The notes under the pieces are model-generated. The model had not been told where the DNA came from. It did not search any database and saw only the letters and a program-made list of their open reading frames with translations. This document shows, one piece after another, positions 9,354 to 39,399 of a DNA stretch of 48,582 nucleotides. The position numbers and the translations under genes were made by a program. Origin of the DNA: Clostridia bacterium. Its GTDB lineage: Bacteria; Bacillota; Limnochordia; DTU080; RSA5. The DNA lies in assembly GCA_002919235.1 (NCBI GenBank), contig PKEX01000029.1:1-48582 (forward strand), in the 5' to 3' direction. The stretch's first letter is position 1. Each line of letters opens with the position of its first letter.

Positions 9354-9383
9354 TTGACAGGATTCGGCGCGTTGCGTTATGAT
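9354..9383 (+). promoter_or_regulatory. trp operon promoter
   Basis: TTGACA (9354-9359) and TATGAT (9378-9383) with an 18-bp spacer form a near-consensus sigma-A promoter. Transcription should start near 9390, about 240 nt before trpE, leaving a long untranslated leader. Confidence 0.8.
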
Positions 9384-9405
9384 GAGCGAAACTGGAAAAA
9401 CGAGA

Positions 9406-9428
9406 GGTGCGGTCCGGCGAGCCGCACC
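9406..9428 (+). ncRNA. 5' stem-loop of the trp leader
   Basis: GGTGCGG and CCGCACC pair perfectly (7 bp) around a 9-nt loop about 15 nt from the predicted transcript start. A 5' stem-loop in this place is a known component of the B. subtilis trp leader, where it aids TRAP binding; here the role is inferred from position. Confidence 0.55.
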
Positions 9429-9429
9429 G

Positions 9430-9504
9430 GAGTGAGCTGAGGGCCAGGCGGGCCACGGGGTGGACCGCCGGCCAGAGTCTGAGACGAGCCCGAGCAGAGC
9501 TGAG
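9430..9504 (+). promoter_or_regulatory. GAG-triplet array, candidate TRAP binding site
   Basis: Six GAG triplets occur at 9475, 9481, 9486, 9492, 9497 and 9502, separated by 3, 2, 3, 2 and 2 bases. Three more lie at 9430, 9434 and 9439. The two blocks are separated by a strong hairpin (9442-9473) whose folding would bring them together into about nine triplets. TRAP (MtrB) binds (G/U)AG repeats spaced 2-3 nt. No mtrB gene is in the window. Confidence 0.65.
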
Positions 9505-9549
9505 ACGTTTCGCACCGCTTCTGGTATCGCCGCTGCCGGAGATGCGCCT

Positions 9550-9590
9550 GCCGGGTTCTCGTGGGTCTTGCGAGAATCCGGCTTTTCTTG
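9550..9590 (+). terminator. trp attenuator terminator
   Basis: GCCGGGTTCTCG (9550-9561) pairs with CGAGAATCCGGC (9571-9582) as a 12-bp stem with one G-U pair and a 9-nt loop, followed by TTTTCTTG. It lies in the leader 40 nt before trpE, so it is an attenuator. Bases 9484-9492, inside the GAG array, can pair instead with 9552-9562 and would form an antiterminator. Confidence 0.75.
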
Positions 9591-9630
9591 TCGGAGCGTC
9601 GCTCTGCATGGGCCGCGAAAGGAGCTGCCC

Positions 9631-11190
9631 ATGGAGATGCCTGTCAGTGCCGTTTCCCCCGCCTGCCCGGCTGTGGTTCCCAGCCGGGAAGAGTACGCCC
9701 GCCTCGCGCGCCGGGCCACGCTGATCCCGGTCTACGCCGAACTGGTGGCCGACACGGAAACACCGGTCTCTGCCCTGTTGAAGCTGGGGCCTTCGCCGTA
9801 CCGTTTCCTCCTGGAGAGCGTCGAACGGGGTGAGCGCCTCGGCCGCTACTCCTTCGTCGGGAACACCGCCTCGCTGATCTTTAGGAGCAAAGGGACGCGC
9901 GTCGCCGTCGGGCGTCCGGGCCGGGAGTCCGAGACGGGCTTCGTCTTTTCCGAAGAGGAAGCCAGCGATCCCTTCGAGACCCTGCGCCGGCTTTTCAAGG
10001 CATACCGCCCCGCGGACGTGCCGGGCCTGCCTCGCTTTTACGGCGGAGCTGTCGGCTACCTCGGCTACGACATGGTCCGCTTCTTCGAACGGCTTCCCGC
10101 CGCAAAGCCCGATCCCATCGGCGCTCCCGACGCCTATTTCATCTTCACCGACACCGTGCTGATCTTCGACCATCTTCAGAGGACGCTCAAAATCGTGGTC
10201 AACACCCAGCCGGAGGGGAAGGATCCGGACCGGGCCTACGACGAGGCGCTGGCGCGCATCGAGGAGACGCTGGCCCGCCTCGAGGGGCCGGCGCCGTCCC
10301 GGCCCGCGCTGGTCCTAGACGGCGGGAGCGGAAAGGAGGCCGGCCTGCCCGAGGAAGCCCGCTCCAACTTCCAGCGTCCCGAATTTGAAGACGCCGTGCG
10401 CGCCGCGAAGGAGTTCATCCGGGCCGGAGACGTGCTTCAGGTGGTCCTTTCCCAGCGCTTCGAAGTTCCGGTCGCCGCAGCGCCCGTCGACATCTATCGC
10501 GTCCTTAGGACCGTCAACCCGTCGCCTTACATGTTCTGCCTCGAGTTTCCCGACCTGGCGGTGGTGGGCTCCAGCCCCGAAGTGATGGTCCAAGCGGAGC
10601 AGGGGGTGGCCCGCCTGCGGCCCATCGCGGGGACTCGCCCCCGGGGGCGGACGTCCGAGGAGGACGAGGCGCTGGCCCGGGAGCTCCTCCAAGACCGCAA
10701 GGAGATCGCGGAGCACGAGATGCTGGTGGACCTGGGCTGCAGCGATCTTGAGCGGGTCTGCCAGCCCGGCAGCGTCCAGGTGGACGAACGGATGGTGGTA
10801 GAGCGGTACTCCCACGTGATGCACATTGTCTCCGGCATTTCGGGGCGTCTGGCCCCGGACCGGGACCCCTTCGACCTGCTGCGGGCCACCTTCCCCGCGG
10901 GGACGGTCTCCGGAGCGCCCCGGCTGCGGGCGATGGAGATCATCGACCAGCTGGAGCCGGTCCGGCGGGGGCCGTACGCCGGGGCCATCGGCTATTTCGG
11001 GTTTTCCGGGAACATGGATTCTTGCATCGCCATCCGGACCGCGGTGGTCAAAGACGGGACCGCCTACGTGCAGGCGGGGGCCGGGATCGTCGCCGACTCG
11101 GACCCGGCCCGGGAGTATGAAGAGACGCTAAACAAAGCCCGGGCGATGCTCAAGGCCATCGCCCTCGCAGAGCGAGCTGCGGCGCGCTGA
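9631..11190 (+). CDS. trpE: Anthranilate synthase component I
   Basis: A 519-residue cytoplasmic enzyme converting chorismate and ammonia or glutamine-derived ammonia to anthranilate. The tryptophan feedback site is intact: LLES (60-63) and NPSPYMF near residue 293. Chorismate-binding sequences include RPIAGTRPRG, FPAGTVSGAPRLRAME and the QAGAGIVADSDP end. One oddity is DLGCSD at residues 368-373, where the family almost always has DLxRND. No glutamine amidotransferase domain is fused and no trpG is in the operon. The ATG has AAAGGAG seven bases upstream; in-frame sequence further upstream is leader RNA, not protein. Confidence 0.95.
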   Translation: MEMPVSAVSPACPAVVPSREEYARLARRATLIPVYAELVADTETPVSALLKLGPSPYRFLLESVERGERLGRYSFVGNTASLIFRSKGTRVAVGRPGRESETGFVFSEEEASDPFETLRRLFKAYRPADVPGLPRFYGGAVGYLGYDMVRFFERLPAAKPDPIGAPDAYFIFTDTVLIFDHLQRTLKIVVNTQPEGKDPDRAYDEALARIEETLARLEGPAPSRPALVLDGGSGKEAGLPEEARSNFQRPEFEDAVRAAKEFIRAGDVLQVVLSQRFEVPVAAAPVDIYRVLRTVNPSPYMFCLEFPDLAVVGSSPEVMVQAEQGVARLRPIAGTRPRGRTSEEDEALARELLQDRKEIAEHEMLVDLGCSDLERVCQPGSVQVDERMVVERYSHVMHIVSGISGRLAPDRDPFDLLRATFPAGTVSGAPRLRAMEIIDQLEPVRRGPYAGAIGYFGFSGNMDSCIAIRTAVVKDGTAYVQAGAGIVADSDPAREYEETLNKARAMLKAIALAERAAAR

Positions 11191-11263
11191 CGCGCCGGCG
11201 GAACGCGCCGGGCGCTGCCGTAAAGCCGCGGCGGGCCCCGGCGGCAAGCAGGAGGGAAAGTTG

Positions 11264-12283
11264 ATGATTCAAGAAGCGATCCGCAAGGCCGTAGAAGGGG
11301 TACACCTCACCGAGGATGAGGCGGCCGCCGCGATGGAGGCCATCATGGAGGGGGAGGCGACGCCGGCCCAGATCGCCGCGTTCATCACCGCGCTGCGGAT
11401 CAAGGGGGAGACGGTGGACGAGATCGCGGGCTGTGCCCGGGTGATGCGGGAGAAGGCGGCCAAGATCACCCCCCGCCGCACGCCGCTGGTGGACACGTGC
11501 GGCACGGGAGGGGACGGCGCCAACACGTTCAACATCTCTACGGCCGCGGCCTTCGTCGCGGCGGCGGCGGGCGCCGCCGTGGCCAAGCACGGCAACCGTT
11601 CCGTCTCGAGCCGCTGCGGCAGCGCCGACGTGCTGGAGGCGTTGGGCGTGCGCATCGACCTCACTCCCGACGCGGTGAGGGAGTGCATCGACCAGGTGGG
11701 AATCGGCTTCCTCTTTGCGCCGCTCTTCCATTCCAGCATGCGCCATGCGGTAGGTCCCCGCAAGGAGATCGGCATCCGCTCGGTCTTCAACGTCCTGGGG
11801 CCGCTCACCAACCCGGCCTCAGCTCAGGCCCAGGTGGTGGGCGTCTACGACGCCGCGCTCACCGAGCCGCTGGCCCGGGTGCTGGGCCGGCTTTCCGTCC
11901 GGGAGGCGTACGTGGTCCACGGGCAGCCGCGCCTCGACGAGATTTCCATCAGCGGCGAGACGCAGGTGTCGCACCTCAAGGACGGCGAGGTGCACACGTT
12001 CCGCATCCGGCCGGAGGACGCCGGGCTCAAGACCTGGCCCGCGGAGACCATCGCCGGCGGGGACGCCCAGCACAACGCGGCGATCATCCGCAGCGTCTTG
12101 AAAGGAAAGGAGGGCCCGCAGCGGGACGTGGTGCTGCTGAACGCGGCCGCGGCGCTGCTCGTGGCCGGCCTGGCCAAGGACCTTATGGACGGCGTGGCCC
12201 GGGCCGCGGAATCCATCGACCGCGGCCGGGCCTACGAGAAACTTGAAGCGTTGATCGAGTTCACCCGGAGTCGAGCGGCATGA
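11264..12283 (+). CDS. trpD: Anthranilate phosphoribosyltransferase
   Basis: A 339-residue enzyme that joins PRPP to anthranilate. Diagnostic elements are DTCGTGGDGANTFNIST (PRPP and anthranilate site, about 79-95), KHGNRSVSSRCGSADVLEALG and RSVFNVLGPLTNPA. Length matches the family. The ATG at 11264 is eight bases after GGAGG; a TTG codon directly before it is less well placed. The 73-bp gap from trpE is the only real gap inside the operon and shows no terminator. Confidence 0.96.
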   Translation: MIQEAIRKAVEGVHLTEDEAAAAMEAIMEGEATPAQIAAFITALRIKGETVDEIAGCARVMREKAAKITPRRTPLVDTCGTGGDGANTFNISTAAAFVAAAAGAAVAKHGNRSVSSRCGSADVLEALGVRIDLTPDAVRECIDQVGIGFLFAPLFHSSMRHAVGPRKEIGIRSVFNVLGPLTNPASAQAQVVGVYDAALTEPLARVLGRLSVREAYVVHGQPRLDEISISGETQVSHLKDGEVHTFRIRPEDAGLKTWPAETIAGGDAQHNAAIIRSVLKGKEGPQRDVVLLNAAAALLVAGLAKDLMDGVARAAESIDRGRAYEKLEALIEFTRSRAA

Positions 12284-13086
12284 GCATCTTGGAACGGATC
12301 TTGAGTCACAAGCGGGAAGAGGTGGCCCGGGCCAAGGAGCGGGTGCCGCCGGCGGTCCTCGAAAAGGAGGCGCTGGCCCGCGCGGCGCAGCCTGCGGAGC
12401 GGCCGCGCTTTGCCGACGCGCTGGCGGGGAGCGGCGGCGTGCGCATCATCGCCGAGATCAAGAAGGCATCGCCTTCCAAGGGCGTGATCCGCGAGGACTT
12501 TGACCCGGTTGAGCTGGCCCGCATCTACGAGGCCGAAGGCGCGGCGGCGATCAGCGTCCTCACGGACCAGCGCTTTTTCCAGGGAAGCCTCGACCACTTG
12601 GACGCGGTTCGCCGGTCCGTCACCCTGCCGCTCCTGCGCAAGGAGTTCATCATCGACCCGTACCAGGTGCTGGAAGCCAAGGTCCATGGCGCCGACGGGA
12701 TCCTCCTGATCGTGGCCGCGCTCGAGAGGCAAGAGCTCGCGGCGCTCCTGCGGATGGCAGGAGAGCTGGGGCTTGACGCCCTGGTGGAGGTGCATACCGA
12801 GGAGGAGCTGGAAGTGGCGCTCGACGCCGGCGCGGCCCTCATAGGGATCAACAACCGGGATCTCAACACCTTCCAGACCAGCCTGGAGACAACCGAGCGG
12901 CTGGCGGCCAGGATTCCCACAGGGATCGTCATCGTGAGCGAGAGCGGCATCTCCACTCCCCAAGACCTCCAGTACCTCGAGAGCCTGGGCGTTCACGCCG
13001 CCCTGATCGGCGAGGCGCTGACGCGAGAGCGGGACGTGGCGGCCAAACTGCGCGCCCTCACCGGGCGAAAGGAGCGGGTCTCGTGA
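12280..13086 (+). CDS. trpC: Indole-3-glycerol-phosphate synthase
   Basis: A 268-residue TIM-barrel enzyme that closes the indole ring. The active-site strands are all visible: IIAEIKKASPSKGVI (catalytic Lys and Ser region), SVLTDQRFFQGSLDHL, LLRKEFIIDPYQV, ALVEVHTEEEL, IGINNRDLNTF and VSESGI. It is not fused to TrpF, unlike in enterobacteria. Its ATG overlaps the trpD stop (ATGA). Confidence 0.96.
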   Translation: MSILERILSHKREEVARAKERVPPAVLEKEALARAAQPAERPRFADALAGSGGVRIIAEIKKASPSKGVIREDFDPVELARIYEAEGAAAISVLTDQRFFQGSLDHLDAVRRSVTLPLLRKEFIIDPYQVLEAKVHGADGILLIVAALERQELAALLRMAGELGLDALVEVHTEEELEVALDAGAALIGINNRDLNTFQTSLETTERLAARIPTGIVIVSESGISTPQDLQYLESLGVHAALIGEALTRERDVAAKLRALTGRKERVS

Positions 13087-13729
13087 CCGGGACAGCCACC
13101 CGGGTCAAGGTGTGCGGCATCACCAACGCGCGCGACGCCCGGCTGGCGGCGGCCTTCGGCGCGGATGCCATCGGGCTCATTTTCTGCGAAAGCCCCCGGC
13201 GGGTCGACGTGGACACGGCGCGCCGCATCGTGCGGGCGCTGCCGCCCTTCGTCACCCCCGTCGGCGTCTTCGTCGATGCGCCGCTGGACGACGTCCTGGC
13301 CGTCGCGGCCGAGGTGGGCCTGGGCGCGGTGCAGCTGCACGGGAGCGAGACGCCGGACTACGTCGAGGCCGTGGCGCAGCGGGTTCCGGTGATCAAGGCC
13401 TTCCGGGTGCGGGACGCGGGAGTCTTGGACCAGTGCCGGGCCTACCCGGCGGCGTCGGCCTTCTTGTTTGATGCGTACGTCGAAGGGCGGATGGGGGGAA
13501 CGGGGCATGCGTTTGACTGGTCGCTTCTCTGCCGCGAAGAGGAGACCCTGGGCCCCCTGCCCAAACCGTGGATCCTGGCAGGAGGGCTGCGCCCGGAGAA
13601 CGTAGAGGAAGCCGTCGCGCGGTGCCGCCCCTACGGGGTGGACGTGAGCAGCGGCGTCGAAAAGGAGCCGGGCATCAAAGACCCGGAAAAGCTGCGGCAG
13701 TTCATTTTGAAAGCGAGGCGCGTGGTGGC

Positions 13730-13733
<4 letters not shown>
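13083..13733 (+). CDS. trpF: Phosphoribosylanthranilate isomerase
   Basis: A 216-residue TIM barrel performing the Amadori rearrangement of PRA to CdRP. The catalytic cysteine lies in [12 protein letters not shown] near residue 10. QLHGSE, the Asp of FLFDAYVEG with the following GGTGHAFDW loop, the [14 protein letters not shown] strand and the phosphate-binding [14 protein letters not shown] are all present. The GTG start overlaps the trpC stop by four bases. Confidence 0.94.
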
Positions 13734-14925
<1,192 letters not shown>

Positions 14926-14929
<4 letters not shown>

Positions 14930-15747
14930 ACCGGTTTGCGCAAGGATTTGAACGGTGCCGCCGCGAAGGCCGGGCGGCGCTCATGCCGTATATGACGGCG
15001 GGCGATCCCAGCCTGGAATGGACGGAGCGGTTGATCGACGCCGCCGTAGAGGCGGGGGCCGACATGATCGAGCTCGGCGTGCCCTACTCGGACCCGCTGG
15101 CCGACGGGCCCACGGTGCAGGCGGCGGGCCAGCGGGCGCTGGCCGCGGGCGTCACCGTGGACGGCATCTTCGGCCTCGTCCGCCGGGTCCGGGCCCGCTA
15201 TCCCGCGCTCCCCTTGGCCCTCTTGGTCTACTACAACTGCGTCTTCCGGCGCGGGGAGCGCCGGTTCGTGGAGGACGCCGCTGCAGCGGGCGTCGACGGG
15301 CTGATCATCCCCGACCTGCCGCCGGAGGAGGGCGGCGGCGTGCAGGACGCTGCGGCCGAAGCGGGGATCGACGTGATCTACCTCGTAGCTCCTACCAGCA
15401 CGCCGGAGCGCATTCGCCTCATCGCCTCCCGGTCCACGGCGTTCATCTACTGCGTCTCCCTGACGGGCGTCACCGGGGCCAGAAGCCAGCTCTCGGCGTC
15501 CCTGGACGCCTTTTTGAGCCGGGTTCGCCGGGAGGTGCGGGCGGCCGGCAAGGAGCTGCCGCTGGCCGTGGGGTTTGGCATCTCCAAGCCCGAGCACGTG
15601 GCCGAGGTGAGCCGGCTGGCCGACGGGGTGATCGTGGGCAGCGCGCTCATCGACACCTTCCACGGGCAGGAGAACCTCGAGGCCGGCCTTGAAGCCTGCC
15701 GCAGCATGATCCAGGCGATGCGCTCGGCAGCGCTTCTTCCCGCCTGA
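14926..15747 (+). CDS. trpA: Tryptophan synthase alpha subunit
   Basis: A 273-residue TIM barrel that splits indole-3-glycerol phosphate. The catalytic Glu is in [15 protein letters not shown] (about residue 49) and the catalytic Asp in [23 protein letters not shown] and [11 protein letters not shown] bind the phosphate. The GTG start overlaps the trpB stop by four bases. It ends the trp operon; the following 76 bp contain repeated CCCGGG palindromes but no hairpin with a U-tract. Confidence 0.96.

Positions 15748-35847: not shown

Positions 35848-39399
<3,552 letters not shown>

Follow-up and report, generated by a model that had tools for sequence, protein, structure and literature searches.

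The tryptophan operon trpEDCFBA of a Clostridia bacterium (GTDB class Limnochordia) appears to be controlled by TRAP through a leader RNA whose GAG triplets are interrupted by two stable hairpins. The analysed stretch of DNA, here called the window, is 48,582 nucleotides long (contig PKEX01000029.1), and the leader within it extends from a putative transcription start to the trpE ATG at 9631. Because the genome encodes the TRAP protein MtrB, the leader carries the elements of a TRAP-responsive switch and related genomes carry comparable arrays, we put the probability of TRAP control of trpEDCFBA at roughly 0.9. A first-pass annotation, made from the letters of the window and their open reading frames, had already read the region as a TRAP attenuator, and that reading is now supported by mtrB, by the arrays of relatives and by the predicted loss of the antiterminator when the array is masked. 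The leader likely comprises two stacked switches, with its ten GAG triplets forming nearly one array once the hairpins are looped out. TRAP is a textbook protein-directed RNA switch, described chiefly in a handful of Bacillus species, where the 11-triplet site is unbroken. The gene logic seen here is that of known TRAP attenuation; the interruption of the site by conserved hairpins appears to be new, no hairpin-split TRAP site being described in the open-licence literature searched.

Organization of the trpE leader

The features of the leader and operon, all on the forward strand, are as follows.

9354..9383, +, sigma-70-type promoter (TTGACA, 18 nt, TATGAT), from sequence and an aligned promoter in the sister genus
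9402..9404, +, lone GAG, 1 nt (A9405) before the stem of hairpin 1
9406..9428, +, hairpin 1 (5' stem-loop), -14.8 kcal/mol over 8 bp, between GAG-a and g-GAG
9430..9441, +, three GAGs (9430, 9434, 9439) with spacers of 1 and 2 nt
9442..9473, +, hairpin 2, 32 nt, about -24 kcal/mol, directly adjoining the upstream GAG (0 nt) and 1 nt (A9474) short of the downstream one
9475..9504, +, main predicted TRAP array, six GAGs with spacers of 3, 2, 3, 2 and 2 nt (model R1, E 5.8e-4)
9484..9492, +, predicted antiterminator 5' strand, within the array, pairing with 9552-9562
9488..9500, +, array segment GCCCGAGCAGAGC, predicted to pair with 9601-9613 and free the trpE start (duplex also kept in L011, the sister genus)
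9550..9589, +, intrinsic terminator, 12-bp stem 9550-9561/9571-9582 followed by UUUUCUU, -22.5 kcal/mol
9601..9613, +, anti-sequestering strand GCUCUGCAUGGGC, predicted to pair with the array, or through 9607-9613 with 9627-9633
9607..9633, +, predicted start-codon hairpin CAUGGGC/GCCCAUG, with the Shine-Dalgarno sequence AAGGAG in the loop and the trpE AUG in the stem
9631..11190, +, trpE (anthranilate synthase component I, Pfam), first gene of the operon
9631-15747, +, trpEDCFBA operon

The near-consensus promoter proposed earlier is borne out, with TTGACA at 9354-9359 and TATGAT at 9378-9383 separated by 18 nt; the aligned position in the sister genus reads TTGACA/TATAAT, and transcription would presumably start near 9390. 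Within the operon, trpE, trpD, trpF and trpA were called by Pfam, and trpC and trpB were identified from their translations. Read along the RNA, the 5' part of the leader runs GAG (9402), A, hairpin 1, G, GAG (9430), U, GAG (9434), CU, GAG (9439), and the 3' part continues with hairpin 2, A, GAG (9475) and five more GAGs, with the terminator downstream.

The triplets of the main array start at 9475, 9481, 9486, 9492, 9497 and 9502, so that the six GAGs at 2-3 nt spacing described by the first-pass annotation are present as given. Its upstream block of three GAGs also exists, but the first two of these triplets are only 1 nt apart. Likewise, the array is indeed split, but the earlier count of about nine triplets had missed a tenth, the GAG at 9402. 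TRAP recognises 9-11 NAG repeats (PMC4347634); set against that rule, the leader offers six contiguous triplets and reaches ten only with the hairpins looped out and one spacer of 1 nt.

The regularity of the array is unusual. Elsewhere in the window the longest GAG chain with regular 2-3 nt spacing has three members, and a regular chain of six never arose among 4,000 Markov segments (4.86 kb each). The array model R1, built from relatives' arrays with the window array and that of L011 in its training set, scores significantly at a single site of the 2.24 Mb genome, namely 9475..9504. In the same genome, a secretin-like gene has a weak array-like run of seven triplets with spacers of 1-4 nt over its start (L121, G000:C7:12060-12078, E 0.49), which is probably due to chance. 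A high density of GAGs does not by itself count as evidence, because an equally dense stretch occurs on the minus strand near 36699, where 116 nt hold 12 GAGs without regular spacing.

TRAP and its apparent regulon in the class

The TRAP reading calls for an mtrB gene elsewhere in the genome, and a search found one (PF02081, 136 bits, E 7.1e-40, G000:C30). All six genomes of the order carry the gene, as do 54 of the 73 genomes of the class. The encoded protein aligns without gaps to the crystallised TRAP 1c9s; the E-K-L-D, K-x-R, T-R-G-x-D-T and Q-F-T-E-H-T-S stretches are identical. In Bacillus TRAP the E-K-L-D and K-x-R stretches bind RNA, and the residues contacting RNA and tryptophan are kept here.

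The leaders of relatives agree with the earlier expectation: GAG arrays precede their trp genes, and the array of the sister genus is split as well. Matches to array models across the class fall on the starts of trpE, trpD, trpB, trpB-like genes and trpP, with one trpP and two trpB-type proteins identified by Pfam and the others from translations. Arrays at or near the start were seen for trpP in L127, L128, L131, L132, L135, L139, L141, L142 and L145, for trpB in L133, L147 and L150, for trpB-like genes in L136, L144, L148 and L149, and for trpD in L125. Since the matches fall on tryptophan genes, TRAP control of these genes appears to be general in the class and to form a coherent regulon, as judged from sequence. 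Two more five-triplet arrays (L156 and L157, at G004:C141 and G004:C217) lie before genes in one member of the order.

A search for TrpP in the genome that contains the window came up empty. Anti-TRAP, an accessory TRAP partner that is not part of all systems, had no match in the 73 genomes with an approximate query that lacked a positive control. The operon carries no TrpG/PabA gene (window 11190-11261), and no TrpG/PabA glutaminase was recognised at the family cut-off in the 99% complete genome (G000). TrpE may therefore work with ammonia or with a partner that escaped recognition.

Hairpins within the triplet array

The 5' stem-loop (9406-9428) and the strong hairpin between the GAG blocks (9442-9473) had both been seen by the first-pass annotation; their exact abutment to the triplets had escaped it. 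Each hairpin is flanked immediately by a GAG on either side, leaving just 1-2 nucleotides unpaired, and the array would therefore be continuous if the hairpins loop out. When flanks were shuffled, an equally stable hairpin lying flush between a triplet and the array came up in 5 of 2000 cases for hairpin 2 and in 7 of 2000 for hairpin 1.

The sister-genus leader (L011) has the same arrangement, reading GAG-CU-GAG and a hairpin of 32 nt (-20.9 kcal/mol), followed by GAG, GAG, UAG, GAG, GAG, GAG. One unpaired base lies between its stem and the flanking GAGs, as in the window, and none of 2000 flank shuffles produced a hairpin as good. GAG-CU-GAG stands right before the hairpin in both genera, and the array ends are conserved in their triplets and in the CCC and CA spacers 3' of the hairpin. 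The hairpin itself has equal length and the same place with only 14 of 32 bases identical. Same length and place with differing sequence argues that structure rather than sequence is conserved, on the basis of two genera, the family comparison consisting of this one other genome.

As a rule for the whole class, the hairpin-split array was rejected, as the layout is otherwise almost absent from a survey of 63 arrays, which yielded isolated cases only. Weaker versions occur in L020 and L183, and most other leaders of the class have unbroken arrays. The survey missed L011 because its hairpin contains a GAG.

Two predicted switches

The intrinsic terminator noted before trpE is present and strong. 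The antiterminator proposed earlier, 9484-9492 with 9552-9562, can form with a 2-nt bulge, and in predicted folds with hairpins 1 and 2 preformed it pairs before the terminator is complete. Masking 9475-9504 as if bound abolishes this pairing in the predicted fold. In the full-length leader the terminator is 7.6 kcal/mol more stable than the antiterminator; at equilibrium the terminator would prevail, and the outcome must therefore be decided kinetically, with readthrough depending on timing. The proposed mutual exclusivity of the two structures is predicted with the upstream hairpins preformed, but is not seen in an unconstrained fold of the whole leader. There, hairpin 1 is opened by a long-range helix with about 9527-9549, masked or not, and the antiterminator is absent, which means that the transcription switch as modelled needs co-transcriptional folding. 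Across 10 leaders of the class, two of them from the same genus, complementarity of the array to the 5' arm of the terminator is moderately above chance in combination (Fisher p 0.012).

A second predicted switch, missed earlier, would act on the trpE start codon. The duplex of array segment 9488-9500 with 9601-9613 has an energy of -24.6 kcal/mol, matched by 57 of 2000 shuffles, and the region 9594-9640 folds at -22.4 kcal/mol. The probability of the start hairpin in predicted folds is 1.0 with the array masked and still 0.76 with the array free. In the sister genus the predicted start-codon switch is clearer than in the window: the minimum-energy fold of the free L011 leader pairs the array with GCUCUGUUUGGG and leaves the ribosome site open, and in the masked leader a hairpin GGGGCUC/GAGCUCCC forms. 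The L011 array duplex taken alone is no better than shuffles (710 of 2000), and support there therefore comes from the conserved pairing and the fold switch. The homologous terminator hairpin of the sister genus (L011:1420-1460) is weak and lacks a good U-tract, a state that would fit decay of attenuation with the translation switch retained. Given this degenerate terminator, translation may be the main control point in the sister genus. The same kind of translational control is known for Bacillus trpE, as PMC4347634 notes with reference to Du and Babitzke 1998.

Together, these elements suggest a working model in which both TRAP binding and the direction of control are what we infer for this leader. 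When tryptophan is plentiful, tryptophan-loaded TRAP would wind the GAG triplets round its rim; Bacillus TRAP is a ring of 11 subunits. Hairpins 1 and 2 would be looped outward between neighbouring subunits, so that the GAGs at 9402, 9430-9441 and 9475-9504 form nearly one array. TRAP on 9475-9504 would block the antiterminator, allowing the terminator stem 9550-9582 to form and stopping transcription before trpE. On transcripts that escape, it would block pairing of the array with 9601-9613, and the start-codon hairpin would prevent trpE translation. When tryptophan is scarce, the free array would pair with either partner and the operon would be expressed.

How TRAP might read the split site

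The best reading of the site, somewhat better than an even bet in our estimate, is that one TRAP ring spans the hairpins. We give even odds that the ring binds a discontinuous array in which stable helices replace the 2-nt spacers and bring distant GAGs into register. Folded RNA within the site would make TRAP recognition less strictly linear than the Bacillus 11-triplet rule. A rival account, which we regard as unlikely yet the most serious competitor, is an ordinary TRAP leader whose site consists of the six 3' triplets, the hairpins being 5' stem-loops and the upstream GAGs incidental. It draws on the fact that these six form a regular conserved block, five of them aligning with the sister genus, and on stem-loops directly before the array in L016 and L018 as well as the mapped 5' stem-loop of Bacillus (PMC3913778). 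Against this, six triplets fall short of the number cited for TRAP (PMC4347634), GAG-CU-GAG is kept before the hairpin in both genera, and hairpin 1 is GAG-framed at the same distance. The two blocks separated by a stable stem could instead hold two TRAP rings, or one ring that bridges both while the hairpin acts as a rigid spacer. We judge this improbable, since an upstream block of just three or four GAGs would probably not bind stably by itself, and the flanking gap of one unpaired nucleotide suits continuation on the same ring better.

Least probable, and very remote in our view, is control by a T-box or a leader peptide, the GAG repeats then being a coincidence. Several relatives do have a T-box leader before trpE, and nine relatives match the T-box covariance model; in the window this Rfam model found no match at the gathering score, and T-box attenuation was rejected for the leader on that ground. 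Leader-peptide attenuation was likewise rejected, the window leader having no short reading frame that combines clustered Trp codons with a ribosome site. The presence of mtrB in the genome and the recurrence of arrays on trp genes also speak against both.

Relation to known TRAP systems

Control by TRAP with the array split by hairpins, the reading preferred here, places the leader close to that of B. subtilis trpEDCFBA. Both have a GAG-type array, an antiterminator that overlaps it, a terminator and a 5' stem-loop, and a second switch, here predicted, by which the ribosome site of trpE is hidden. The gene order without trpG in the operon and the location of mtrB elsewhere in the genome are also shared. 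B. subtilis TRAP sites additionally cover the ribosome sites of trpG and trpP, and arrays of the class lie in like manner over the starts of trpP, trpB, trpD and trpE. Unlike those sites, the window array lies upstream and would act by the proposed refolding, with no direct coverage of the ribosome site. In the Bacillus trp leader, 11 (G/U)AG triplets follow one another without interruption at 2-3 nt spacing, and the attenuator hairpin is weak (PMC3913778). In contrast, the window leader has ten triplets, all GAG, in blocks of one, three and six split by stable hairpins, and its terminator stem is strong. The conserved in-array hairpin suggests that folded RNA can replace a spacer on the TRAP ring; if true, this would widen how TRAP sites are searched for.

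Tryptophan T-box leaders, absent from the window leader, govern trpE in relatives within the class. The survey of the class further suggests that TRAP controls trp genes far outside Bacillus, with both systems meeting in some leaders. In several trpE leaders of the class, a T-box comes first and a (G/U)AG array then covers the ribosome site and start of trpE (L022, L028 and L038 by Rfam; L024 and L033 with the T-box recognised by sequence motif). Since the two elements follow one another in a single leader, uncharged tRNA-Trp and tryptophan-loaded TRAP appear to act on the same trpE leader in some relatives.
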